A DNA stretch of 64,000 bases from Amblyornis subalaris (lineage: Eukaryota > Chordata > Aves > Passeriformes > Ptilonorhynchidae): the NCBI GenBank assembly GCA_018881555.1, contig JACAXG010000080.1:3676076-3740075 (forward strand), read 5' to 3'. Positions 41,342 to 64,000 of the stretch are shown piece after piece. Both the position numbers and the translations under genes were made by a program. The notes beneath the pieces were generated by a model. The model did no database searches. It was not told where the DNA came from and worked only from the letters and a program-made list of their open reading frames with translations. Each line of letters opens with the position of its first letter. Positions within the stretch are counted from its first letter, which is position 1.

Positions 41342-45452
<4,111 letters not shown>

Positions 45453-45491
45453 AGTCCAGCTCAGGGTGGCTCTGGCGCTGTCAGTGTATTA

Positions 45492-45497
45492 ATTAAA
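45492..45497 (+). terminator. RPS4X: RPS4X poly(A) signal ATTAAA
   Basis: ATTAAA about 40 bp after the stop codon. This gives the very short 3' UTR typical of ribosomal-protein genes. Confidence 0.75.
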
Positions 45498-46956
45498 CCA
45501 TTTCCTACATGACTGTGATTGGCTGGGGAGCATCCCGGGGCTAGGGGGGAGCCATGTTGCCAGTGCCAGGCCTCGCTCTTCAGAAGGTCCTGCTTCTCTG
45601 GGGAGACTCCCATCGATCTGACCAACTGCCACAGCCACATTGCAGAAGGGCAAGGGGGAAGGGTGGGAGAGCCTTCACACTGCTCCATCTCCGGGAAGGT
45701 GTTGGCATGAATGCTCCTGGATGTCACAGGATGTGCAGGAGGAGCAGGAGTCTGGGGTGAGCCAGCTGGGCTCTCCTGTAGCCAGTGGTACCAGATCAGC
45801 TTGAGGAGTTGCCCCAGCTGTGTTGGCTTCGAGGGTGCTGGCGCTCAGTGTCCCACGCTTGGCTGGCGGGCGTGCACTGGGGCGATCCCTCCTAGGCTGC
45901 TCTTCAGTGTCTTCTGTGGAGGTGGAGGTGCAATGGATCATGCTCACAGCTGGGACTAGGCGAGAGGAGAATGGGCTGCCAGGGATGCTGAGCACCAGCC
46001 TGGCAATGGGCTGTTGCTGGGGAGCCAAGGAGGCTGGGAGCCAAGGGGGCTGGGGACCAGCCGTGGCTGTGGGAATGGCCCTGGAGGCCAAGGTGGGCAG
46101 GTGTGACCAGAATGTCCAGGCACAAGGGCAGTCCCACAACTGGGCTGTGCCAGCAATGGTGCAGAAGGCACTGTAGGGAAGGGGAGGCTGTGCCTGGGCA
46201 CAGTGTTCAGGCTGGGGCCACCTGGTCCAGGTGGGTATGGGTGCTGGAGTAATGCCAGTGGAGGAGCTGGTGTCATGGAGGCACAGAAGAGCAGGAGGGC
46301 ACAACCTCTGCTCAGCCTGCGGAAGAGGAGCCCTGGGGCCTGTTGCACTCTGCCTGCCGGCATCAGCCCTGTGAACACCTGTCTGTTCCAAGATGGATGA
46401 GGCACAGATGTGCATGATTGGAAAATCTGCATCTTTCATTGTCTTCGTCAGGTGTCCATGGTGAAATATAGTCAAGCCTTATGAAGTGTCCACAGCCAAC
46501 TGTATTGTGACAATGTGATGTCCTCAGGAAAGCTGAGTGCCTGTGGCACTGCCCNTACTCCTATCTCTCGAGTGTCCCAGTGCTGCTCCCTCTGGATGCT
46601 GCACAGGCTCAGAGCAGCAGCATCTCCAGGGACTTTTCATGGTGCTGGCAGCAGGCACTGGTACTCTGGCTGTCCTGTGATGCACAGATCTGAGCAGTCA
46701 GAAAGCAAAACCCCGACATTTTCATGCACAAAGGCAAAAGCAAAAATTAATTTTTATGTTGTGGAAAAGCTCTGGAAAAGCTCCAGAAAACTGCGAAATT
46801 GAATATTTGGGAAAGTAAAAAAAAACCCGATTTTTATATTAGCAAAAAAACCACCAAAATGGCAACAAAACCAGCAATTGGGAAAATTTGGGGTGAAATG
46901 CTTGCAGTGTGGGCGTGGGCATCGCGATGGATTATCCAGTGTGGGTCAGCCAGAGT

Positions 46957-47012
46957 GAGTTGTCTCGTGGGGGTTATCCCGAATGAGTTGTCTGCCGAGC
47001 ATTATCCCGGGT
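46957..47012. repeat. 28-bp tandem duplication
   Basis: Two adjacent 28-bp units both start GAGTTGTCT and contain TTATCCCG (46957-46984 and 46985-47012). A third, more diverged unit (GGATTATCCAG) precedes them at about 46928. Confidence 0.75.
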
Positions 47013-47059
47013 GGATCTGATATGTCATCTCAGTGGGTTTCCCATGCATCTCCCCCGCT

Positions 47060-47520
47060 CCATCTGTGTCCTCTCCCAGCTCCTCGGCCGTGACCGCCCC
47101 ACTCTCCGCCCCCGCGGCGCCTCCGCCCGGGCCCGCGGCGCTTCCCGGGCCGGGACCCCGCCGGGCCGCACTCGCGGCCGCCACCTGCTGGTCAGGGGCT
47201 GGTACTGCAGCCAAGAAAGCCGCGCGTGCGCGCTGACCAACACACGGCGCTCTCCCTGCTGCCACCCGCTGGCCAGAATGCCGAACTGCAGGTAAACCCA
47301 CAGGTAGACCCACGGGTAAACCCGCGTGTGCACGGCGGCGCTGGGGCTGGCGCTGCGGGACGGGCACTGCGGGGCTGCGGGCGGAGCCGCCTCCCGGTAA
47401 GGACGCGCCGCTGCCGTCCCACGGGCACGGTGTCGGCGGCGCTCGGAGTGCAAAGCGCAGAACTGAGGCGCTGGTGCCGCCGGAGAGGTGTTGCCGCCAC
47501 TGCCCCGCAGCGTTTTAAGT
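47060..47520. promoter_or_regulatory. Orphan CpG island
   Basis: A CpG-dense block including GCGGCGCC and GCGCGTGCGCGC runs. It lies ~1.6 kb downstream of RPS4X and ~1.3 kb upstream of the RBM11-like start codon, which has its own smaller GC-rich promoter. No recognisable coding exon lies in it. It may be a promoter of an unannotated transcript or of a lost gene. Open frames on both strands are composition-driven. Confidence 0.45.
47291..47326. repeat. Three tandem 12-bp units
   Basis: The units are GGTAAACCCACA, GGTAGACCCACG and GGTAAACCCGCG. They lie inside the orphan CpG island and are probably young. Confidence 0.85.
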
Positions 47521-48852
47521 ATCAATAATTGCATTCACCTCCAACACACATGCCCAGGTATTGAGTTCATGCTGTGCATTTCATGTGGTCAATTCTCATT
47601 TCTTCCCTTAGGCCACCAATGATACAAAACTTCTTTACTTTGATCCACAGCAGTGACACATTCTGTCTGACAAGCTCTCGGGCTCAGGTAGCACTCGGCA
47701 ATGCAGCTCGTTCCACAAATTATTGCTCTGACTTTTCACCCGGGCAGCACTCAAACCCGGTCTGCCAGAAGCAGCTCCTGGAGAGCTGCTCTCCTGCTGC
47801 CTGTGTCCCTTGGCCCTGGAGACTTCCTCCTGGCTCCGTGGTCGGAGCAGTTTTCAGCCCAGCCCCAGGCCCGTGGAGGTGCAGGTGGGCCTCCTTGCGT
47901 CTCAGCTGGTGCCCTTCGGCAATGTTTGCCAGGTTAACGGGAGCTGGGAGACACCTGCTGCTTGACGCCCAGTTGTCTGGGAGGGGCTCAGTGTGCCATC
48001 ATGATGGAGAAAAAAAGACATGCTCAGGAACACTGGTGTTCACAACAGCAAGTGTGTGACTGGTAGTGTCAGCGATTGATCTGGTGTTTCTACAGGAAAA
48101 AGCTTGGATCAGGAATTCTCATTGTGCCACGAGCTCCCCCCTGGCCCCAGGGGCTGCTCCTGCCGCCGGGCTTTGGGTACACTCTTTTTCCCGGCTTTCT
48201 GCCTGTGACCTGCTGCCATTGGAAGCTCAGCAGAAGCAAAAGTCTCTGTTCATTTGCCCAGCTGTGGCTGCACAATTCTAGCAGTTTATTGCAGAGATTA
48301 GGTCAGTCTGTTGTTCCAGTGCTCCATGATAAAAAATCACTTCTGTTCAAGCCGACACTGTAATATTAGTGCAGCATTTAAAATGGGTTTTCTGCATGGC
48401 AGGCATGGAGTTCCATCTGATAAAATCCCCTCTCTTTGCTCCTGACCTGAGCACTTGCTCTGTTTGCAGCCTCTTCTACAGCAAGGACTCACTGCAACAT
48501 TAATGGCAGGAGTGGATCATGTGAATCTACTTGTGAATGCAAGTTTGGGGAGATGGGTTGTCTTTCAGGGTTGATCGGTTTGTTTTGCACCAGTCAGTCC
48601 CGCCAGCACTTAAGATTCGGCGGCAAAAATAGAAGAAAACGCCTCCATGTTCGTAANTTACCCTCATCACTACACACCGAACGATCAAGTGCGGTGTCAC
48701 AAGCAGATGTTGGGGGTGGTGGCACACACAGACGCGACACCCGCCCGCCCGCGTTCCAGCGTTGCCGGGACCCGGGTCCGGCCCCTCACAACGAGCCCCG
48801 GAGCGCAGCTTCCCATCAGCTGGGGCGCTCCTGCCGCGCTCCCGCAGGCTCT

Positions 48853-51800
48853 ATGTCGTCGCCGGGGCGGTCCGAGGCGGCGGAGCAGACTCTCTTCGTG
48901 GGGAACTTGGAAAGCCGGGTCAAGGAGGAGATCCTCTACGAGCTCTTCCTGCAGGTAGCGACGGGTGCCCTTACNTGTAGAAATGCCGTTTTAATGCTGG
49001 AGGAGAAAAATTCCACCAATGGGGTGTTAAGTTAGAAGGGCTGTACGCTCTCCAGAGGTATTGGGCGCCTCCCTTCAAACCCCGACCCTTCAGTGATGGT
49101 GCAGAAACTCAAAGTAGCTGGACCTGTTTCAAGCCTGAGCTTAATTCCTACCTGTTTTCAAGACTAAGTAGAAGTCTGTTGTATAACTGTAAATGTGAGC
49201 TTAAGAAAGTTTATCTTCCCAGAGGACATGAGTAATACAATACAAAATGCAAAGTGATAAAGATGCTCTCAGAACAGAGTTTTTCAAGATTCTTCTGCAT
49301 CATCTGCAGCAGCCATCCAACTGCTGGCTTTTATCTGGGTCTTCAGGTCATCCCTAAAGACTAACTTGTCTTTTTCCCTCGTTTTGTTGTCACTCAGGTT
49401 TCCCTTTTGCTGCAACAGCCTATGCTTCTCCTTGTAGTATTGCCCTGTCTTGGAAAGTGTCCAGTTCAATATTCCTGCTATGGCACTCCTGACCTCTAGC
49501 TCTTCCCCCATCAAATGATGAGAAAGTATCTACTGCTACTTCTAAACTATTAATATATTTATTTATGAACTGGCAGATAATTTATGAACTGGAAGATAGC
49601 TATGGAGTCAGTAAATTAGTCTTCCCCTTTGGGAAGCTATTTGGTGTGGGATGGTATTCTAAAAATAATAAAAATTCTGATTATAAAAGACTAAACATGA
49701 ACCGATGCTTGGTTCCCCTTTTAACATATGTGGAGCTGATTTTTGTTTGTAGAAGGCTCAGAGTCTGAGCTTTGGCAATGTGGAGAAACATTTTCAAAGT
49801 AAGAAACTTACAGTTTCTGACTATGGCAAAAGAGAAATCATAATGAAATATTCAAAACAGAATGAATTGTCAATCTCTGCTAAATAATATAAATTTCTTT
49901 CAGGCTGGACCATTAACTAAAGTGACAATTTGTCAGGACAAAGAAGGAAGATCTAAGTCTTTTGGATATGTGTCCTTTAAACACAAAGTATCAGTGCCTT
50001 ATGCAAAAGCTCTGCTGGATGGAATCCACTTGTATGGAAGACCAATCACCGTGCAGTATTGTAGGGGTATGTTTCATAGTCCCAGTGGTAAACTTAAAGC
50101 GTAAATTTTTTTACCTTTTTAAGAATAGTTTTGAATCCTACAGTCTTTTACAAAGATAACAATCTGTAGTTGGAAAAAACTAGTAGTTTTTTTTTTTAAA
50201 AGAAACACAGACTTCCTGTGGCTTTTGCATAGGGAAGGATTCAGTCCTTGTATTTTTGTATTTACTAAGAGAATACAACAGACTGGTTCAGAACAGCATG
50301 ACTCGCAAGCTGTATCAGACACTGCTGTATGGAAAACAGCACCCTAGGTTTTCATGCCGGATTACATTTAGGAACTGGGATGTAACTTTACCTTGCAGTC
50401 CGACAGGAAAAGTTGATTCAGTAAGGCCAGCCACTGTTGAGCTGTTGGATTGTTCTTAGACTAAAGGTACAGGGTTATCAGAGCTGTGGTTTTAAAGGGA
50501 AGGGATTGTAGTTCAAAGAATATGTTAAATTAAAAGTTATATTCTTCATTTTATGTTTATGTGACTAAACCTTTGAGCAAGCCAATGATCAGGCAGCACT
50601 TGCAACCCAGACATTAAGGACTTACGTTCCTGCTGTGTCACTGCTTCCTTCAAAGGCTCTACAGAGCAGTTGCTGGTTTAAGCAGAATAGCTGAGGTTCC
50701 TAAAATCAGAAGCATCTCCTGTGTCTGTAACTGGATGACAATGATGCTGTTCTTGATTACTTCAACAACCCTGATTTGTGCTTCTGTAAGTGAATAAATG
50801 AGAAGTGAACATTTTCAAGCTGTAAAATGATTCAGATTATCTGCCATAAAATGGCACCGTAGCTTTGTATACTACCTTAGCTCTACTAGTACACTACAGA
50901 TGACATAAAACACTTTCTGTGGTTTTTAGCTTGTTAATTGAATAGTCATAACTGAATAGTCCTTATGCTCTTGTCTTATTTACAGGGAGTTCTCACTCAC
51001 CAGAACTAGACAGCTGCATACATGGTTTTGAAAACCATATTGACTTAGATTCTCCTGCAGACAGGTAACAAAGATCACCTGTGAAGGAATGTTTTGATTA
51101 TAATTTTTAAAAAATCTTATTAAGAAAGTGATTTGATGTGGTAGAGCAATCTTGAGGTTTTTCATTAAAACAGCATATTTTCATTACATCCTTACCAAGG
51201 ACTTGCAACAGGCTGCAGTTTAATGTTTGGTTGTTTAGCTTGCCAGATGCTTAGTTAGCTTCAATTTTCCATTCTTTCTTTGTTTCTGCAATATACAGGA
51301 CCATGAGAACATACTGAAACCTGGTGTTTGCACTAACAATGTTTTCAGTCATTGGGGGAAAAAATCTGACAACAGATTTTTTTAAACCCGAGTTTACACC
51401 TGCATATTTTGTGTGTTTAGGCACAAGCAGCTGTCAGGTACATAAGAATGCAGTTATAAACCTGTTATAATGGAAGTCTGAACACCCTAGATTCAGTATT
51501 TAAGCTGAACTCCCATGGGGAAATCTAGTACTCTTGTGCATGCACAGATGAGGATTGCTCATTAATAGAGCCTTTGGGTATATTTCCTTTGTTTTATTGT
51601 TTTTTTTCATGTAAGTCCTGTTGTTAATATCTCAACTGTCCTCTTGGATATTCCCATTACAGCCCAAGAGTTAAGTCTCAGCACTCTAATAAGCAGTATG
51701 TGGTGGACAGCCAGCCTTTCTACATTTGCTTGTTTTTCCTTTAGGCACCAAGAGCCCTCTGGAAATTCTCCATTTCCTGTTACTCCTTCGCCAGTGAACA

Positions 51801-52033
51801 ACAGTTTAATTCATGAACACCCTGGCTTTGAAGAGATGGTGAGTTTGTGCTAGAAGTTAAAAATCTGGGAGCATTTTTATGAAGTTGAATGCATTTTGCA
51901 TTTCTGCAAACAATGGTGCTTACTTCATGTTCCAAAATGTGCTATAAGCACAGTATTAGGACATTTCAGGGTCCTATAATAACGGGATCTACCAAACCAA
52001 ACTATTTTCTTCCTGCAGGAATATCTTAAATGA
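48853..52033 (+). CDS. RBM11: RBM11-like RRM protein with alternative short terminus
   Basis: RNA-binding protein of the RBM7/RBM11 family; RBM11 is known as a tissue-restricted splicing regulator. Exons 48853-48954, 49904-50066, 50986-51064 and 51745-51838 have consensus splice sites and compatible phases and encode 146 aa. One RRM fills residues ~12-88, with RNP2 LFVGNL and RNP1 KSFGYVSF. The segment EEILYELFLQAGPLTKVTIC is far closer to RBM11 than to RBM7. After exon 4 a strong acceptor (TTTTCTTCCTGCAG) opens exon 52019-52033, which adds EYLK and a stop, with AATAAA at 52049. The product would be ~150 aa, much shorter than typical RBM11, losing the Lys/Arg-rich tail. The expected last exon survives only in broken form at 53642-53860. 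Upstream, the promoter region 48,720-48,900 is GC-rich. This is not a retrocopy, since introns are present. Whether it is the sole RBM11 or a duplicate is unknown. Confidence 0.75.
49284..49514 (-). other. Antisense open frame in RBM11-like intron 1
   Basis: A 76-codon frame on the - strand has balanced, protein-like composition, rich in Lys, Glu, Asp and Gln (for example KTREKDKLVFRDDLKTQIKA), in otherwise AT-rich intron DNA. It starts MMGEELE and ends DDAEES. I do not recognise the family. It could be a fragment of a processed pseudogene or an exon of an unknown gene; a chance frame cannot be excluded. Confidence 0.25.
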
Positions 52034-52048
52034 ATATAGCCTAGGGAA

Positions 52049-52054
52049 AATAAA
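52049..52054 (+). terminator. RBM11: Poly(A) signal of the putative short RBM11-like exon 5
   Basis: AATAAA 15 bp after the in-frame stop at 52031-52033. With the strong acceptor at 52018 it defines a compact terminal exon. Confidence 0.5.
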
Positions 52055-52059
52055 AATGC

Positions 52060-53641
52060 TAAAGTCTAGAGACAGAGCTCTCTCCTGCACCTCCTGCACT
52101 GTGTTCCAAATGGTGGGACAAGTTAACCTTGTTGGATTACAACCACACAAGCAACAGCTTCTTCACATACAGCTAGTTTCATTGGGGAAACCTCTTAGTT
52201 CCTCACAATTCAGAAAAGCCCAGCAGAAGTTTGAAATGTGCTAAAATCAAACCTAAAACTCACCCAACCAATCACCATTGTGCAAGTTTGGGCAACAACA
52301 GTTTGAGGGTTTCTGGCCTGAACCTTCACATGCCCCTGCAGGTCTCTCTGTCGTGATTTACTTTCACAGAGTAGTTGCCAAGAACCCACATTTCAGTTCC
52401 CCTCTGACAAGACTGGCACACCACACCATTCTCGCCCTGATCTCTTCTGTCTGAGGTATTCCACAGAGCAAGGGAACTGGTCTCTTCAGGTGGAAACCCG
52501 TGGGTCAAACCTACTTCCAAAACACATCATGGAGCTTCTGAATCGGATGAGTCTGGACTGGTAGGACTGAAGAAATCCAGCCTTTAATGTGGGATACCAG
52601 CTGTTGACAGTCCTGCTCACCCAATCTGACTGGGGACTGGCCAGCCCTTTGGAACTACAGAAGGGGGGAAGTCTGGATCAATTACCCTCGTTGGCTGCAA
52701 TCTGAGCAGGAAAACGGACAGAATCTGTTCCCTATTGCATGGATGGGGTGGGGGCCTGCCCTCCCCTCTTCCCAGGCTGTGCCTTGAGAAGAGCTGGTGC
52801 TTGTACCAACTTTCCCATCTTCTCTACTCCTTTTGGAAGGTTCAAGTGCACCATGTCCCCCTCTACTTGCTGATGAACCCACTCCTCAGTTACAAGGCAG
52901 TACATAAACACCATGAGACCAGACTCGGCAGACCAGCACCCACAAGCAACTTCATCCCATTTTCTGCTTGCCAGAGAGGATGATGGTATTGCAGTGTGTC
53001 TCACGTGATAGTTTGCTGAAGCTTCAGCAGGAAGTGATCTCTTCACCACTGTGCTTTCATACATCTACCTCCCCTTGCCTTGGGTGAGCCAGGCAGGTTG
53101 CTCACTTGGAGTCTTTCAAGCTCCTCGTTGGAATGCTTTGTTCCACACTGACTTTAAAATTGGTTAAACCAGGTTTGAGGAACTTGCTGATACGCATGCC
53201 TTAACATTACCAATAGGCACTGCAGTTACAAATATTTATCAAATCGAGATGAGGAAATGAAAGGAATACCATGTTTGTTTACCTTATGTGAGGACTAGCT
53301 GGCAATTTCATCGTAGATTATGTCTCTGTTCTAACTTTGCCATGAAAAACTTGTCTACTTTTCTGAACTATACTAGTTGTTGTAATAAAATAGTTTTATT
53401 CTCAAGCATTCTATGTTATTTTATAGTTTGCCAGTCTTTTAATTGTATAAGCCATAATGCATGCAAAATTAAGCTCTTTAGAACCTCCTCTTCACAATGT
53501 TAACAACTCACGTTTCTATTTCTCTAAATGTACCAGTTTTAAACATAGCAGTACACAGTACAGAATCCAATGGGTTAACAATATCCTTATTAGCACATGA
53601 CTCCACCAGTGTTCTTAAATTTATCCTTTTCTCCCTATCAG
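52060..53641. other. RBM11-like intron 4 / inter-exon insertion
   Basis: 1.6 kb between the short terminal exon and the degraded old one. It contains a 110-codon - strand frame (52732-53064) of unknown identity and another AATAAA at 53384-53389. The stretch from ~52,240 to 53,080 is more GC-rich than its surroundings, which hints at an inserted element, but no family was recognised. Confidence 0.35.
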
Positions 53642-53860
53642 AATCAAACTGCAAATGTTAAGACTGCACAAAGTTCTCTTGAATTGGCCACATCCAAGTG
53701 ACTGTGAAGTGCATCAAGTGGGATGAAAGACCCTGTGAAAGCAAGAGAAAATGGAAAAGTTGTGACAATGACATTACTACCAAAGATAACAAAAGGAGAC
53801 AGACAGCGTGGCCAAAACTGCAAAAAGCACAAAGCCAAGAAAAAGACACATTAATACTGG
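53642..53860 (+). pseudogene. RBM11: Degraded former last exon of the RBM11-like gene
   Basis: A good polypyrimidine tract and CAG acceptor precede 53642. In the phase required after exon 4 the frame runs only ~19 codons to TGA at 53699-53701. A second frame reads NWPHPSDCEVHQVG, and a third reads ESKRKWKSCDNDITTKDNKR. Together they resemble, in order, the PSDSDLYQM and Lys/Arg-rich tail that I recall from RBM11. At least two frameshifts are therefore needed to read it. ATTAAA at 53920 may be the old poly(A) signal. Sequence error is possible, but no n bases lie here. Confidence 0.6.
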
Positions 53861-53969
53861 ATAAACGGATTAATCTTTTCTGTTATTATATTTGCTTTCA
53901 TCTTTCATCTTTGAACTGTATTAAAAAAAGGAATGTTCAAGATTCATAGTATTTTTGAAATGTGTTATG

Positions 53970-54135
53970 CATAGAAACATAGAATATCCTGAGTCAGAAG
54001 GGACCCACGAGGATCATCGAGTCCAGCCAGGCCTGCACCTGCCACACTGAGCTGTGCTCTGCCCCCTTCCCATCCCCTCCCAGCACATCACCCCCCTGGG
54101 GAACAAGTTCTCCCAAAACCCCAATCAGAGCCCAC
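53970..54135 (-). mobile_element. CR1-like 3' end
   Basis: An antisense tail: ATAGAAACATAGAATATCC, then GAAGGGACCCACGAGGATCA and CGAGTCCAGCC. It is a short 5'-truncated copy downstream of the RBM11-like gene. Confidence 0.85.
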
Positions 54136-54317
54136 TGAAGCTGCAAGGTCTGGCTTTTGTGTCCCTTCTTCTACACTGTCTGCCACAACTGGAAAGTCTG
54201 GCTGGCTCCACTGTACTTGCAATGGCCCTTTAAGCAGCTGCAAACTGATCACTCCTCAGATTCCACAGGCCCAGCTACATCCTCATACCTTTACTTATCC
54301 TCAATAAAAGGCATTGA

Positions 54318-54640
54318 TTTGAAAAACATTCACAGAACATTTGGGGTTGGGAAGGACCTCTGGAGATCTAGTCCAATCACCCCACCAAGGCAGGGTCACC
54401 TGGGGCATGTAACACAGGAATGTGTCCAGGTAGGTCTTGAATGTCTCCAGAGGGAGACTCCACAACCTCCCTGGGAAGCCCAGTTGCAACATGAAACTGA
54501 AGCTAAGCTGCTCATTCCCAGTAGGATTCTCCTCACTACTTTTGGAAGGGTCTGTCTGAGGAAGTCTTTACTTTTAGTCTGCCAGTCCTCATTGCTCATT
54601 CTCTCTAGCACCACACACCTCTCTCCTGACATTCCTCACA
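54318..54640 (-). mobile_element. CR1 3' end, second copy
   Basis: Starts TTCACAGAACATTTGGGGTT, then GGAAGGACCTCTGGAGATCT and GTCCAATCACCCC, and later CCACAACCTCCCTGGGAAGC. This is the antisense of a CR1 3' UTR. The right border is approximate. Confidence 0.85.
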
Positions 54641-56269
54641 CAGAATCTCTCTTACCTGTTCTTTCATCTGCATTTTAGTTGCAATATTTGCCTCTTCTGA
54701 TTTTCGCTACAGAGCCCAGGGGTTTTCTTGAGAGACATCATCTTTTTTCCCCTCATGTCCATGAAGGCTTCTCCAAACAGAGATAATATCCAGCCAATAT
54801 TTTGGTTCCTCAATGACAAAGCTTTTAATGTAATGCAACATTTTCCCTGCAACAAAAAGCAGTTTCAGGTTAAAGCAGTTCAGCCCCAGCATTTGATTTT
54901 CTTACGGATTGAGAACGGCTGTTAATAGAAACATGTGAACCCAGGGACCACAGCACATCAGACATCAGAGGCACAGCTGAGCTCTCAACACCCACATAGC
55001 CACCAGCAGACACCCAGGCATCCCTCCCATTACAAACTCTGCAAAGCCAAAATTAAATCATGCAGGGGTTGAATTCTGCAGAAAACTTCAGCACCTCTAG
55101 AAAACCAGACCATCTCTGAGAGTCATTCCCAAGGACAGAGGACCAGCTTCCCAGAATTTAGAATTATCCACGTAGGGGTGGAATCTACNAGATAATAGTC
55201 ACAAGTTCCTGATGTCAACAATCTGGTTAAGTGCCCCATCTCTCCCAAAAACACAGCTCACGTTTCCGAATTGGGGGGGGGTTGTTTGGTTTTTTAATAA
55301 AAGACAGCTTCCACATACCTAATCATTACTGTGCTGTTTATGCAGAACAAACAAACTTTAAATACTAAAATGCAGATGTTAAGCTGGAACATGCTGTTTG
55401 TTTCAAATTGCTCAGCAGGGCAGGCTCAAGCACTCCCCTGCAATGGCTTTACACTCTGTACAATCAGTTCTATGTGGCCACGACTCTATATAAGGAATAT
55501 AGTACATATATTGACTATTGTTTTTATTGTCAATTTACAAGAGAGAAAAAAATATTTTTCATTCTTATTCCACATTAACACTTCAGTAGAAAGTTACAGG
55601 TGTTGTATTGGCATGACCTGCAACTTCAGGAGGAAAAAGGACACATACATATCTATAGGAAATCTAAACTAATTCATAGGATAGGTACCAGCCAACAGAA
55701 TAACGATTATCTGAATTCAATACAATTGTGATTCTTGCTCCAAGGGAAAAACAAAAAAATCTTGCAAAATACAAAGGCTAGTAGCTTGCATTANGTAAAT
55801 AAGACAAACCACATATGGTATAACTTTTTCTTTGCATGTTTGTGAACAGGATTGTGGATTTAGGCACAGATTAAATTGCTGAGTTAGTCCCTTCATCCTT
55901 CACACATAATTAGCACCATAAAGATCCAAGGACCTCAGCAAACACCTAAATGTCATGCTTAATAGCTAAAGCATGCATCTCGCAGAGTTTGTGAATGGTA
56001 CATACTTTGTTTATTAAGGTTACTGTGCAAAAAAGATTCTTAACTACTGTTAACTGTTTCTGTAATTTTGGCAAAATTATCAGCAACATTTCTATAGTTT
56101 AGCAGGCTTGTGTGATATTAATAAGGGAAAAAAAACCCCTTGCATTTCATCCTTGACTGCTGTGCACAGGCCCTGCTCTGGCAAACAAGAAAACAATGGC
56201 AGCAGCCTGCATGTCCAATTAAGTGTTGGGAAAAATGAGTTCATATGCATGATAGTATCAGAATGTGTA
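54641..56269. other. AT-rich intergenic DNA
   Basis: No gene recognised between the second CR1 copy and the LTR. Two n bases lie at about 55190 and 55795. A homopolymer GGGGGGGGG followed by a T-rich run is at about 55274-55300. Confidence 0.5.
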
Positions 56270-56765
56270 TGTCCTAGTTTAAGACAATTTTACAGGATGG
56301 AGACTTTGAAATAAGTTACCTCCACTTAGTTCTCAACCTCTCCCCTCTACTACTAAGGAGGGACAAATGTGATAAGATATAAATGAAAAAATAAGTTTAT
56401 TAAAAGAGATACAGTAATAACCAAGAAAACAGCCATACCACAAGATACAAAGGTGCTGAGCCACGTTATTCCCCCCACCCTGAGAAGAAAGAGCCCAAGG
56501 TGGCTGCTGCTCTGGGGCCCAAAGGACAAGGACAAGGTGATGGAGAAGCCCCCGCCTCCAGACCGCATGGCCAAGAGAAAGAACAGAGGAAAAACAACTC
56601 AGCAACTGAGCCTCCATGGCTCCAAAACTCACCCCCTGCCGCCCTCAACCAATAGGGGACAGGGACAAAACAAAACCTGGAAGAACTGGTTTTGTCCAAA
56701 AAAAGGTCAATGCTGCTGGGCTGCCTGCTCCACACCACCAGGCAGGGGCTCTCCCAGGCCATGGT
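56270..56765 (-). mobile_element. Solo LTR, antisense
   Basis: Starts TGTCCTAGTTTAAGACAATT. It contains the antisense of an AATAAA signal (GTTTATTAAAAGAG near 56395) and a GC-rich block. The order is that of a bird endogenous-retrovirus LTR on the - strand. No internal viral genes are seen. The right border is uncertain and no target duplication was found. Confidence 0.55.
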
Positions 56766-57380
56766 GTCTGATTGGTGTCTCCTTTCATTTCTCTGGAAAG
56801 ATTGCCCTATATATGGTAAAACAGTTTTGGTTGTTCATTATCATTGAAGTCAAAGGCTATCAGCTTAAGTGGCTATTTATACTTATGAGTAGGTAATCAG
56901 AATAACCACTGGTTTATAACAAGCAAAAGAGAGTTTACTTTAATTGATTTTTTTTGTCGTAGTAGAAGGACTGCATTTTTCCAACATTTTTTCAAGGATG
57001 GTTCAGTTCTTGTGACTTTAATACATAAGGAAATAATTTTGCATTTAACAAGAATAACAGTTTGTCTAAATAGAAAATAGATTATTTTCCAAATCCACAA
57101 AAGTATCAAACAAATAATTGCTAGATCATGTGCAAGACCTGTCTTGCACTGTTGCAGCCATCCTTACTCTTACAATAATCTAAGCCTAATATAAAAACCC
57201 TGAAGACCCAGGAATTAACCATAACAAATTGTTTACCACTGAAATCTACAGAAACATTACCTGAGCAAACTGTTTTGTTAACAATAACAGCTATTTTTTG
57301 TCAACTGTTTCACAAAACTGGATGAAAATTTGATTGCATACTGCAAAGCATGAAAATAAATACTAAAATGCCTTGTAATT

Positions 57381-57386
57381 TTTATT
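57381..57386 (-). terminator. RPGRIP1L: Candidate poly(A) signal of the RPGRIP1L-like gene
   Basis: TTTATT on the + strand, AATAAA on the - strand, ~390 bp beyond the stop codon at 57774. Confidence 0.45.
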
Positions 57387-57480
57387 TCTGTGCAAAATGT
57401 TAAATGGCTGAAACAAATTACAAACATGCCAAACCTAGAATGAAAAAAAAAATTAAATTATTAGTTGGTACGTTAAGTGC

Positions 57481-57505
57481 GAAATTTGAAAAAATTTCAA
57501 ATTTC
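57481..57505 (-). other. Perfect 11-bp inverted repeat in the putative 3' UTR
   Basis: GAAATTTGAAA, a 3-base loop, then TTTCAAATTTC. In RNA it would fold into an AU-rich hairpin ~270 nt after the RPGRIP1L-like stop codon. Function unknown. Confidence 0.6.
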
Positions 57506-57773
57506 ATTTGAAACCAAACTTCGTTAGAACTTAGACCATGATACTACCAAGTGTCGAGAGCCTGAAGTGTGATTCAGCAAGGAGCTTAAAAATAAGAAAA
57601 CAGACTGAAAAATGTACAAAACTTTACAACTACACTTCAAGCATCTTTTTCATATACATTTTACATTAAATACACTGGAAGAATGACAAAGATCTCATTT
57701 TTGATGCACCATCAAGTATGTCTTTACACTGGGAGCAGGAACTTCTTGTAGGCGAATGTCCCTTTCCTGCCTC

Positions 57774-60700
57774 CTAGTCATTTCTGCATTCCTCGTGGAC
57801 TGAACGCAGCGCATGGAGGGCCTCCACTGTCACTGTGAGCTTTCCAATTACCGCACTGGCATCTTGGGAATCAAAAACTGGAAAGGAAACATCAGAAAAG
57901 AGCATTAGCTATTTAACTTAAGATTTCACTTTTGTTTTGATAATTTTCCTTAGTGTTTAGACAGATTAAAAGACACCCAGCATATGCTAAAAAAAAAAAA
58001 AGGGAGACATAAATAAATAATTTAAAAAGTCTTCCACTTCAGGTCCTCAGGCTACTGGAAATTAACCACTCAGGGGACAGTATCCTTTTACTTAAAAGAA
58101 GAGCAGGATAATTGTAATTAATCATGTCAGAAGATAACACTAATTCTATTTTCACGCTTTTTATACTGTCCTATTATCTCTGAGACATGTTGTTAAATGT
58201 TTTGACTATAATATTTTTCATCCATCTTCTTGCTTAGCCATTCACTTAATTGTTTCAAATTTCACATAAACCACTTTCACACAATCAGCAATCAAAAGAA
58301 CAAAATATGAAAAAGATATATGGTTGCAGTCCTCAAAAAGAATGAAGGAAGTTTATGGTATCTAAGTTAACAATGACTTTATCTTCATGTGGTAGTGTCC
58401 TATGAACTTCCCTGTGTCTAGGTTTATTATTTTTCCTCAAGCCAATATCCACCTCAGAGAATGTGTACCATATTANTTAGGAATTCTGTTTACTGTGCCC
58501 CTACATTTAATTGACATCTGTGTCCAGATCTTAAGAACTGATCCTTTTACAATGACTTCATCCAAGAAAATATACCAATGTATTCTTTTGCAACAATCTG
58601 ACACACACTAACATAAAATTAATTTCAATTCTCTGAAACATCTAAATTTTCAGAAAATACGCAATGTTATATGGATGCAATTAAACCCAGTAGTCTTTTT
58701 GAGTCTTCTTATCAGTTTTATAGAAATGCTATCCTATGACCCCAGGAAAAGGAAGATTCCACACCTCCTACTCACATCACCTTGCTCTAATGAGTCACTG
58801 AGTTTGGTCACAGTCTGGTACAGAAGGGTGCTCACTAAAAACAATTCCTAACCAAAACCACCAGAATTTCATATTGTCTCAGATACATGTTTCATATGGA
58901 GGACACTGACTGGAGGTACTCTGGGGGTTCTAACGTAACTTCAAATAAAATATAGACATTAGTAATACTGAATTGCTGACATAAATTTTAATACAAAACA
59001 AATTTTTATGCAAAATATATATTGATAGTCCTACCACAATATAGTATGTTGTAGAAAACAGAGAATTATAGTAAGCGAATGCGGCTTGAAAGTTCTTAGG
59101 TTTTATAAACTAATTACTATGAGGTGGAAATGCTGTTTGGTTTGGGTTTTTTTTAGAACAGACTTATAGGAATAATACTAATAGACAGTTTTTGCAGACT
59201 TTTGCAAACAAATGTGGAAGCTATCGGTTAATATTAAAGAATTTCTTACTGAAACAATGTCAAACATACTTGCACAGTAAAGCCTGCAAAGCAGAGTAGA
59301 AATCAAACAAATTTTAGGCTACAGAAGTTTACAAGAAAGTGATCTTTAAAACTTACCATCAATGTCTTGCTCAATGACATCTTTTTGCTTCTGAAATATT
59401 TCTTTTAAACTGACATAAGCAAACCCAATATCCTCACATTCAAGATCCTGTTCGTCTTCTGGGGGATCACTGACCACTGTAAATTTTAAGCTAAACAGAC
59501 ACACACACACACAAAAAGTATTTTGTATTCAAAAAGGGTCTAAAACCACACTATTTTACAAGTTTAAAATGCATAGAGGTGGAAACATTTGGTGTATGGG
59601 CAGAATCTTTCCATAAAGTTTGTTTCTTGGTGGTTCTCTTGCTAGGATAAAATGGGAACTGGACTCCTGATAACTTCTGCCTTCCTATTTATTCAACACG
59701 GAACTGAAATTTCAGCACGGGCCAAACCAGACATTCTGATAACTGTAGGAAACAACCTACTTAGTAACACACAGGACAGTAGTGACATGCTGGCACACAT
59801 ACNGGATGAATGCTTCTGTTCTGAGCAAAAGCTCACTGCTGTTATTTTACCTTATTTTTACCTCGGGTTTGTAAAATATTTAGTATAGATAGCTAAGTAT
59901 TTACAGGGGAAGTTGCAGCACACAGACCAGGTATTTTCTTTCACTGTGCTGAGGAATCCATCCAGAGCAGGTGGCTCAGGAGCAGCTGCAGGTTAAGCAC
60001 TGGAGGAGGCCAGCCCAAGGCAAGAGGCTGTGAACTGCCATCCCTTGGCACAACAAAGGGCCCAGCCACGGGAGGAACACTCATGAGACATGGCAGGAGC
60101 TGACAACTCCCAGACTTTGGACAGAGCCAGGGGAAGGACACTCAGGGACACGGCAGGAGCTGATGAGCCCCAGACTGTCCTGCGAGGGTATGAAAGCCCA
60201 GGGGTTCCTTTGTTTGGGGTCCCTCCTTGGAGGCACCAACTCGAGCTGTTATTTTCTTATTTAATTACTGCACCAAGATTAAATTATTTTAAGGATTGGG
60301 ACACCTGAAACTCTGCAATGGGAAACCTGGGCTGGAGCCAGTGAGGGGAACTGGTCTGACTGGGACGGCATGGGGCATGTAGCTGCAAAGGGGCCTCAGT
60401 CCCAGCTCATGGGTGAAGTGTGACTGCCAGAGTGGTCCTGGATGGCTGGACAGGGAAATTTCTTTAACAACTGAATTATCCCTCAGGAAAAAAAAAAGAG
60501 TATTTTATCCTCATTATTGTTAAATCTTAATAGAACATGCTTTAGTAGAATATGTTTAGCAACTTTCCTAACACAGATGGTAAAATAAGGGAAATGGAAT
60601 GAAGAGAGATCACTCTCTCTCTCTCGGAGTGAATCAGTGATTTGTGAATAAATACATATTTAAAAGATTTACAAGTGACTCTGATATTCAGATGCAATCA

Positions 60701-63181
60701 GCAGGTATCCTACTCTTCTGTAAATTAAATGGATCTTTAAATTAATAATTGTTCCATTTGAATGAAGATGGACATTCAAGAAGAAACAGAAAGTATTTCA
60801 TTCATTTCCTCCAAGTAATGCACGTTATCTCAATAAAAAAAAATTGATTAAGAACAAATTTATTATTATGAAACTGAAAAAGTCTAACTTATAATCTTTC
60901 TCGTATGTATTCATATAATAGATGTTGGCTACATCCATATATGTACACATATACATATATTTTGGTTTTTTGGAAATTCTGGGGCCAAAGAACACTTTCT
61001 GCAGTTCTTAAGACTCCTTTTAGTATTCTGAATTCAGAAAGTAACAAATGTACTACTCTCTACCATTGCATGGATATGTGATTTTCAAATTCATTATTGA
61101 TAGACTACTGATGATAGAATCTGAAGTCTCTCCTTTGTAAAACAAAGTTGTAAAAACCTCCATCAACAAAACAAACAAAACCCCCCAGAATTAAACCACA
61201 GCACTAAACGAACATTAGACGAGGCTGCAATATTCCATACCATATGCACCTACTTGGGGAAGAAATAAGACCAGCTGCCACATCAGAATGCAGGTATCAT
61301 TCCTAGCTGAAACAATTCCTTTTTAGTTGTTAGTTATGTTTTAACTACTCAGGGTTACCTTGTCATAAAGAAAACAAAAAGGCAAACCACAAGCATTATT
61401 TACAAGGACCTACAATAGAGGTTCTCAGCATTAATCTGTACCTGTAAGCAGGTAGATCTGGCTTGAGAAGAATTGACTTCAGATACTCTCTTTCTGCATG
61501 ATTATCTGCTTTATCCACATTTATCACTGCAAAGCAAATCAATCAACATAATTGGTTATCAAAGAACAAAGAAAAATAAGTACTTCTTTCCTTTTTCTTT
61601 TCTAAGGAAAAGCAAAAATGTTAGAATCAAATGTTAGAATCATGTGATCTAATGGTGTGTAACTGGCAAGTTTATATTAACACTCTCAAAAAAGATACAA
61701 GCAGCATCTAAGCATGTCACAGAGGTGTCACTTTCTATTAATGGCAATAGCAGCCATAATTTGAAAAGCCAAGGATCTTTATTGCTTTGTATTTGAAGTG
61801 GTTTACTGTGTTTTCTTCCACTAAGGAAGTTACAGATACTGAGAATGTATAGCAGAGTGCTTATCCCTTTTGACAGCCTCAGTAATTTAATCCCCCTTTC
61901 CTGACACAGTATTTCACTAAGAGAATCTCCAGACCAATGGCCTGGAGAAAATCTGTCATCTATATTCCCTCTCAAGTGGGCAATGCCAGCATAGCAATGG
62001 CTGAAGTGACATTTCCAATTGATTTCGGTCTTCAGCTACACACAGAGTGATCCAATAGTTTATGAGCAAGAGGAGGATCTAAATGAGTAAATACTTTGGC
62101 AAGTTGCATTCTAAAATCAGGTTTGTAGATGGTAGCAATTTTAAAGATCTGACTGTGACACCATTTCTGCAAAGCCACTTTTACAAAATTATTTTTAAAA
62201 GAATGCTTAATTTGAATGTCTGTATTAATGGTTTGTCACAAATAGCAAACTGATTCACCCACTCCAGAGTACTCTCAGATAAAAGTCCAAGACTGAAAGA
62301 CTCAGGCTGAATCTTAAATGAAATAAAACTTTACCAGGAAGAAAAAAGTTACTAAATAATTGAAATATGATGAAATAGCTGGAAAAATAATTAAGAAGAG
62401 AATTATCAATTACAATAATTCTATGTATGCTAGTAGTGTAAATATAAATATAAAGTATTATGAAGTAATTAGCAATGTATTAGTATTAAACATGGATGAA
62501 TCAGTTCCCCTATTAAAAGGTTGTCATTAAAGGAACACTGAGTATTTGTAAGTAGTGATGAAGTCCAATTACATAGTCTCTCTTTTCAATTGTACTTTAG
62601 TTGTACAGGTTAGAACGTTTTTCTTTTGCTGTATCATTGTTTACCAACAGAAAAATCAGTTCACCATGCTCTTTTAAAAAGAATATACTAATTTTAGTTA
62701 TGTATAGTCTTATTTTAAAATGTATGTGCTACCAGCATATTTAAATCTACTGTGATGTTACCATTTCATACACAGGCCTACTTCAGCATTTCATTTTATA
62801 CTTGATAATTGCATACTTACCTCATTTCTTAAAAATCACCATTAGTATTTCCCAAAATATTTGGAAAATAGGCCAATAGAGTTGGCACATAGAGAAATGC
62901 AACTATAATATACAGGAAGCAGGCTTTATTGCAGGCATTTTCATAAGACAGAACTGAAGAGAAGAACCAAGCCTGCTCAGGAATACACCAGACTTACCAG
63001 TGCTATAGTTATAGTGAATCCTCTGACCACCTGTTGGTTTTGGCAGTGACAGTGGCGTCTCCTCTGCAAGGAAATTGTTTAATCTGCATTCTACAAACAG
63101 CTGCTGTATTGTTTCATCTGAGGTAATTCGTGACTCAGTGAGCCCGAGCGATGTAATTTTAATCCGAATTTTTTCAACTTC
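57774..63181 (-). CDS. RPGRIP1L: RPGRIP1/RPGRIP1L family, C-terminal exons only (5' end outside window)
   Basis: Ciliary transition-zone scaffold; the C-terminal domain of the family binds RPGR. Four exons on the - strand in transcript order: 62998-63181, 61442-61526, 59357-59490 and 57774-57877 (with stop). All phases close and all introns are GT-AG. Together they encode 168 aa. Readable motifs in order: [89 protein letters not shown], and [18 protein letters not shown] just before the end. VTVEALHAL and the acidic [11 protein letters not shown] favour RPGRIP1L over RPGRIP1, from memory. Upstream exons must lie beyond 64,000; nothing more is visible at 63,182-64,000. The neighbours here are not those of mammalian RPGRIP1L (FTO, AKTIP). 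Confidence 0.85.
59930..60475 (+). mobile_element. LTR-like element with internal 61-bp duplication in RPGRIP1L-like intron
   Basis: A GC-richer island in AT-rich intron DNA. It carries AGCCA...GGCAGGAGCTGA...CCCAGACT twice with a 61-bp period (about 60064 and 60125), then GAGGGTATGAAAGCCC and GGGGTCCCTCCTTGGAGGCA. An AT-rich segment and GGGAAACCTGGGCTGG follow. This looks like U3 repeats, promoter and R/U5 of an avian LTR. Borders are approximate and there are no viral genes. Confidence 0.55.
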
Positions 63182-64000
63182 CTATTTAAAAACAAAACAT
63201 AATACAAATTATTTTTTGTTTCTTTAAGTGTTAACACAAAACAAACATACATATATTAAATCATCAGCTTTTTTATACGATTAATGCTGATTGATTGACA
63301 CATACAAAATGAGAATCTTAAACTCCAGGATTTGTTTTTAAGACTATTGTTGCAAGAGATACTGATTTCCATTCAATGTTTGCAGTATTTCTGCAATAGT
63401 CATAGTCTGCTGGTTATCTTTATGTACAACGCTATCTGAATCACAAATTTCAGTTGTCATTATTTTTACCTTTGCAGCAAAGTGATCCTGTAACTGCTTA
63501 AAATACTTTCAGTAATACAAGGTAACAAAGTTTTCCAAATAAAAGAGAATTGTTAGTACCTACTGCAGACTATACTATAAACAGTTCACTAAAAATCCAT
63601 CAAGTCACAAATTGTTAGGCATGTAAAGTAATAATGTATTTGTACAGAACTCAACTTCATATAGTGAACTTTCCTAGCTAAATCAAACATACCTTTAAAA
63701 GTTAAAATTAACATGTGATAATAAAAGTAATATCCCAATTGTTCTTCACCAGAGCCTTTTCTTATTATCTTTAACTCAAATGACATTTTTCTGTTCCTTA
63801 TATGAAATTGTTTCACACTGTTCTTCAAAGTCTGGTGTATTTGTGTACAGATAAATTTTAGTAAGTTTTATGTTTTTAAGTGGGCATGTCAGACTCAAGA
63901 GAAAGCCACAAATATTTCCCTAAGTTACTCTGGGAAGAAAGAAGAAAGAAAAGCCACTATGGTTTCAAAGTTGGAATATGTAGGTGAGAATTCAATGATG
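63182..64000 (-). other. Intron sequence of the RPGRIP1L-like gene
   Basis: AT-rich DNA upstream of the first visible exon. No further exon with matching phase and splice sites was found to the window edge. Confidence 0.5.

Follow-up and report, generated by a model that had tools for sequence, protein, structure and literature searches.

A 64,000-nucleotide stretch of the Amblyornis subalaris genome (contig JACAXG010000080.1, positions 3,676,076 to 3,740,075), here called the window, carries the genes RBM11 and RPGRIP1L (fantom) in an AT-rich block that sits between RPS4X and F8. The block covers ~48.8-93.0 kb and extends past the window end; coordinates above 64,000 refer to the window extended along the same contig (C709, 3.9 Mb), with 64,001 corresponding to C709:3740076. 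Measured in 2-kb bins, the GC content falls from 0.53-0.64 (40-48 kb) to 0.30-0.43 (50-92 kb) and rises again to 0.49-0.56 (92-124 kb), with a step at each end of the block; the left step bears out the drop from GC-rich to AT-rich sequence near 48.5-49 kb described in the initial annotation of the window. AT-rich DNA is also present elsewhere on the contig, with GC of 0.35-0.46 in most bins beyond ~142 kb. There are no runs of N at 45-93 kb, just single-base Ns, and an Rfam search of 45-64 kb gave no match.

RPGRIP1L had been described as the 3' half of a gene, but it is complete, running on the minus strand from 57,774 to 90,750 (~33 kb) with F8 next beyond it. Exons are colinear, and 1000 of the 1059 positions of the Cyanocitta protein could be placed. 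Protein-to-genome matches within the window locate the last coding exon including the stop codon at 57774..57878, and further coding exons at 59358..59492, 61447..61527 and 62999..63181, all on the minus strand. The gene has coiled coils (by eye), an RPGRIP1N-type C2 exon and the RPGR1_C domain (PF18111, E = 9.8e-58). The segment as a whole, defined by piecewise blastn against a second contig, C215, occupies 56768..64000 and continues to ~92,965 in the extended coordinates.

A search of the genome assembly (1.08 Gb, 820 contigs) for the RPGRIP1L C-terminal family PF18111 gives matches on C709 and C215 only. C215 aligns piecewise to 56,768-92,965, with introns and the CpG-island promoter included; of 18,578 ungapped sites, 84.7% are identical. 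The C215 gene, read except for 6 kb (5,740,001-5,746,000), is a pseudogene: exon 2 and one later exon are interrupted by in-frame stops, and the DNA equivalent to 67.4-77.5 kb is absent. FTO was not found within 10 kb beside the C215 promoter, but the sole FTO_NTD match in the genome is on this contig, 46 kb beyond the promoter and in the opposite orientation to the relic of RPGRIP1L, the head-to-head order of the two genes in vertebrates. We take C215 to be the original RPGRIP1L site.

Phylogenetic analysis of 22 RPGRIP1L rows and 392 columns (C709, C215, six oscines, four suboscines and non-passerines) places C215 as sister to the oscine and suboscine rows plus C709 (97/94), inside the passerine clade (100/99), while C709 groups with the six oscines (84/75). 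Together with the RBM11 tree described below, this makes the species probably an oscine that branched off early. The path from the common node is 0.27 to C215 versus ~0.07 to C709. Of 32 positions that separate passerines from non-passerines, each group being at least 80% uniform in its state, C215 agrees with the passerines at 20, with the non-passerines at seven and with neither at five. Since C215 lies outside all of the sampled oscine and suboscine sequences, the copying of RPGRIP1L is dated to the late part of the passerine stem.

RBM11 is encoded on the plus strand by five exons (48853-48954, 49904-50066, 50986-51064, 51745-51838 and 53642-53701). All four introns have GT/AG boundaries, and the open frame comprises 146 codons from exons 1-4 and 19 from the final exon. 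The 165-residue product has an intact RRM (RRM_1, E = 8.6e-15), and its best protein matches are songbird RBM11; among the best 120 of 195 protein matches the hits are RBM11 wherever a gene is named, besides unnamed RRM proteins. Against structures in the PDB the RRM scores 121.3 bits to RBM11 (human structure 2ywk) and 115.1 to RBM7, a narrow margin. A candidate fifth exon at 52,370-52,564 was discarded, since it is the exon at 53,642 that songbird proteins contain; the discarded exon supplied 64 of the 210 residues in the queries for the protein search and the genome RRM search, and the coverage in the protein search is thus understated. In the RBM11 tree the window copy groups inside bird RBM11, on a long songbird-stem branch (0.24), and branches before ten other oscines (clade of ten, 95/90).

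A six-frame genome search in which all 33 candidates were scored found no second RBM11 RRM; the next best match, on C337, was identified as RBM7. A relic at the DNA level is present on contig C204, where 4999334-5000002 aligns with 53359..54027 of the window (Kimura two-parameter distance [K2P] 0.192, 636 sites) as a candidate for the ancestral RBM11 site. It came from a genome DNA search of the block pieces in which 40 of 3403 candidates were scored, such that copy numbers are lower bounds. The C204 relic consists of the last exon and 3' part of RBM11, is in frame through the basic tail with two stops upstream, and lies 33 kb from HSPA13, presumably the neighbour of RBM11 in human. We also note that in both places the last exon of RBM11 is flanked by one and the same CR1-like 3' end (judged by eye), at 53970-54027 in the window and up to 5000002 in C204, and the CR1-like insertion therefore predates the copying.

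The two gene segments are separated by a spacer at 54095..56250 that has colinear relatives at C239:21429-25032 and C764:463008-464078. These relatives, at least two in number, are not on the gene-donor contigs C215 and C204, and the spacer could represent a third donor or a low-copy element; the C239 piece has no clear reading frame by eye. Next to it, at the RPGRIP1L junction, is a dispersed repeat that is LTR-like by eye (56270..56767), with many genome-wide matches for 56270-56700, and the homology to C215 begins at 56768. The left boundary zone (45470..48850) is single copy in the genome besides two short weak matches, and GC falls just past its right end. Just outside the right edge, at 93.0-94.0 kb, the sequence appears LTR- and gag-like by eye, and open reading frames at 93.3-94.0 kb have no significant Pfam match.

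The components of the block have diverged to similar extents from their relatives elsewhere in the genome. K2P is 0.192 (0.159-0.232) for the RBM11 piece and 0.1755 (0.168-0.183) for non-coding RPGRIP1L relative to the donor-site relics, and 0.208 (0.177-0.244) for the spacer relative to 1.3 kb of C239 (914 sites). This similarity is compatible with one composite insertion, without proving it. Assumed neutral rates give an age of 26-46 My; as this age varies with the rate, the tree is used for dating.

The pairing of the two genes is seen in other songbirds. Listed protein rows are representatives of 90%-identity clusters, from the best 120 of 195 and 120 of 404 RBM11 matches and the best 120 of 907 fantom matches. 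Contig sizes are given for ten oscine RBM11 rows, three of which (Serinus, Onychostruthus and Ammospiza nelsoni) have no comparable fantom row; in all seven of the others (Cyanocitta, Sturnus, Melospiza georgiana, Mimus, Chloebia, Cyanistes and Molothrus ater) RBM11 and fantom are on contigs of identical listed size, and in Mimus and Chloebia the two have consecutive gene numbers. The listed sizes differ in each of the five comparable non-passerines (Morus, Buteo buteo, Phalacrocorax aristotelis, Rissa and Nipponia), of which the Nipponia entries are scaffolds and carry little weight.

A well-supported scenario, which we consider very likely, is that the interval between RPS4X and F8 received an insertion of ~44 kb on the lineage to passerines, a mosaic of at least two donors, and that the originals then decayed. 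Both genes are DNA-level copies with introns, flanking DNA was copied with them, and the donor sites are identifiable, although for RBM11 by one exon only. RBM11 and its promoter would have been copied from the neighbourhood of HSPA13, and RPGRIP1L in full, together with the CpG-island promoter, from that of FTO, with a spacer of separate origin joined between them and the two genes set tail to tail; the donor contigs and C709 presumably represent different chromosomes. One event may have placed all of the pieces, for example template-switching repair that copies several templates into a single break, with RBM11 arriving as early as RPGRIP1L. The originals would have decayed after the copying, and no intact copy of either gene was found in this genome outside the block; the relocated copies are probably expressed, and with the originals decayed, the outcome is a relocation. 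After the move RBM11 would have evolved rapidly, with loss of the basic C-terminus.

Several observations weigh against this scenario or loosen parts of it. The left breakpoint is placed only to the zone 45470-48850. The RBM11 relic is known from one exon (4 kb of C204 were read), C215 is a long pseudogene branch that may be drawn outwards in the tree, and the main FTO match on C215 carries two in-frame stops, such that FTO itself may not be intact. Equal listed size is a proxy for a shared contig, and the sizes belong to 90%-identity clusters. There is no suboscine RBM11 among the matches listed (120 of 195; 120 of 404), which could reflect later arrival, loss, or a row hidden in the clusters. 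The exon-1 part of the RRM is absent from annotated RBM11 in four of the ten other songbirds aligned (Mimus, Cyanistes, Molothrus and Lonchura), either as an annotation gap or through further RBM11 decay. Among non-passerines the Gavia isoform of RPGRIP1L, like the passerine proteins discussed below, is without the second C2 domain, and Cinclus cinclus fantom is on a contig of 117,953,103 bases versus ~20 Mb in many other songbirds listed.

The main competing explanation is that there were two insertions at the same spot, with RPGRIP1L arriving on the passerine stem and RBM11 later on the oscine stem. Rows of the moved type of RBM11 are only oscine among the matches listed and suboscine RPGRIP1L is already in the moved clade, and the repeat and spacer lie between the segments, all of which suit separate arrivals. 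A later event predicts, however, a smaller divergence of RBM11 from its relic, and the K2P interval given above for RBM11 is not below that of RPGRIP1L; we regard two insertions as possible but rather doubtful. It is also conceivable, if improbable, that the mosaic of RBM11, spacer and RPGRIP1L arose on an early germline-restricted chromosome of passerines and entered chromosome 4A from there, the originals being lost afterwards. The block unites copies from two, perhaps three, places, and one report gives more than 115 genes on the zebra finch germline-restricted chromosome that are paralogous to genes of 18 autosomes and the Z chromosome (PMC6884545). Reviews differ on its age, one placing the origin before all passerines (PMC9508068) and another in the songbird ancestor only (PMC10643108), the latter being more recent than the RPGRIP1L copy. 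Ordinary template-switching repair yields the same picture, no paper was found that links the germline-restricted chromosome with RPGRIP1L or RBM11, and the ordinary neighbour genes on the 3.9 Mb contig speak against the block itself being germline-restricted sequence. If correct, this history would make the germline-restricted chromosome a vehicle for moving genes to new sites.

Two further options had been raised in the initial annotation and neither withstands the comparisons. The abrupt GC change and the absence of the expected neighbour could be signs of an assembly chimera of 4A with other chromosomes, but no N runs cross the boundaries, RBM11 and RPGRIP1L are on equal-sized listed contigs in the seven other songbirds, and the ancestral sites are separate and decayed; we give a chimera virtually no credence. 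Distant paralogs exist for both genes, RBM7 for RBM11 and RPGRIP1 for RPGRIP1L, as would be expected of ohnologs from early vertebrate history that birds retained but mammals did not. The ~84% nucleotide identity to the C215 relic, introns included, the nesting of songbird RBM11 within bird RBM11, and an RPGRIP1L split on the passerine stem rather than at the vertebrate base make such an origin extremely improbable. A lineage-specific translocation or segmental duplication, the remaining suggestion considered here, was right in kind, but the event is not specific to this species, as the pairing is present in seven of seven comparable songbirds and RPGRIP1L was already copied on the passerine stem.

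Both relocated genes are altered in form. The ancestral RBM11 last exon is decayed at 53554..53860 (plus strand): a three-frame translation compared with the 256-residue non-passerine form shows stops in the part specific to the long isoform and a frameshift after TSK. The RBM11 frame thus stops after residue 165 without the basic C-terminal region, and the sequence of the tail follows in another frame. Songbird RBM11 annotations differ in length, and several end with the same short exon as in the window (Sturnus, 165 residues). Relative to six rows with a complete RRM, window RBM11 is alike at 74-80 of 90 RRM positions and at 41-47 of 56 in the next stretch, which suggests constraint within the RRM. 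With the basic C-terminus lost and exon 1 missing in four of ten songbird annotations, the function of RBM11 in songbirds appears uncertain. The partial decay that the initial annotation attributed to this gene is therefore real at the C-terminus, and in exon 1 of other songbird rows, but does not extend to the RRM and splice sites in the window.

RPGRIP1L lacks its second, PKC-type C2 domain (PF00168). Residues 766-960 of the 1272-residue Calonectris protein have no colinear match in C709 (E < 0.5), and the exons neighbouring this gap are 1.6 kb apart (69313-67724 in extended coordinates). The domain is absent from all nine passerine rows aligned and present in three of four non-passerine rows, in which the full-length protein with the second C2 is ~1272 residues. 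This loss may have an effect in passerines; the protein without the second C2 is probably still a scaffold of the ciliary transition zone.

The genes to the left of the block follow the order given in the initial annotation. Using tblastn, we located PHKA1 (1.9-20.4 kb), HDAC8 (23.3-35.6 kb), the CITED C-terminus (40.3 kb) and RPS4X on the plus strand, with RBM11 following; the RPS4X coding exons (41559..45449), which form the left flank of the insert, match human RPS4X at 72-100% per exon, and RPGRIP1L comes after RBM11. F8, on the right, is on the minus strand, with one exon confirmed. PIN4, which had been expected after RPS4X, is indeed elsewhere: the sole PIN4-type rotamase match in the genome is at C709:3322294-3322443, 0.4 Mb away on the far side of PHKA1, and the human neighbourhood is therefore rearranged in this bird. 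ERCC6L, the other expected neighbour, was not searched for.

PHKA1, HDAC8, RPS4X and F8 are presumably chromosome 4A and human X genes. Fantom is on contigs of 9.0-10.1 Mb in Hirundo, Sylvia, Prinia and Chamaea (among the best 120 of 907 matches), all Sylvioidea, and on a 0.5 Mb scaffold in Zosterops. The autosomal half left after the 4A split is 11 Mb, according to one report (PMC8662655). Given these neighbour genes and the closeness of the Sylvioidea contigs to that size, C709 is probably chromosome 4A. The 118 Mb Cinclus contig with fantom does not fit this assignment and may reflect a 4A fusion or a further move in dippers.

The relocation has several implications. It provides a datable rearrangement marker for passerines, helps to account for the divergent and shortened RBM11 and RPGRIP1L of songbirds, and points to a domain missing from a ciliary transition-zone protein in all of the aligned passerine rows. 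Assigning orthologs by synteny will fail for both genes. No publication describing the move of RBM11 or RPGRIP1L was found, in a search without most subscription journals and all preprints. The moved RBM11 resembles known RBM11 in having one RRM and grouping with bird RBM11, but differs in its place, its length (165 residues versus 256 in many non-passerines) and the loss of the basic C-terminus. Similarly, RPGRIP1L retains the RPGRIP1N-type C2 and RPGR1_C domains in one gene over ~33 kb, but in a new place and with the second C2 gone. Like the mosaics of songbird germline-restricted chromosomes the block joins copies of several A chromosomes, whereas it lies within a 3.9 Mb contig of ordinary genes and its pairing recurs in ordinary songbird records.

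A close parallel is passerine GH2, which has been described as an interchromosomal, intron-bearing segmental duplication of ~20 kb from chromosome 27 to chromosome 1 at the passerine root (PMC10016047). The block described here would be a second case of copying between distant places on the passerine stem, again with introns kept. It is unlike GH2 in that at least two donors, and two genes, are joined and that in the single genome analysed the originals are decayed, such that the genes have moved and the copies have taken the place of the originals, whereas virtually all passerines keep both copies of GH.

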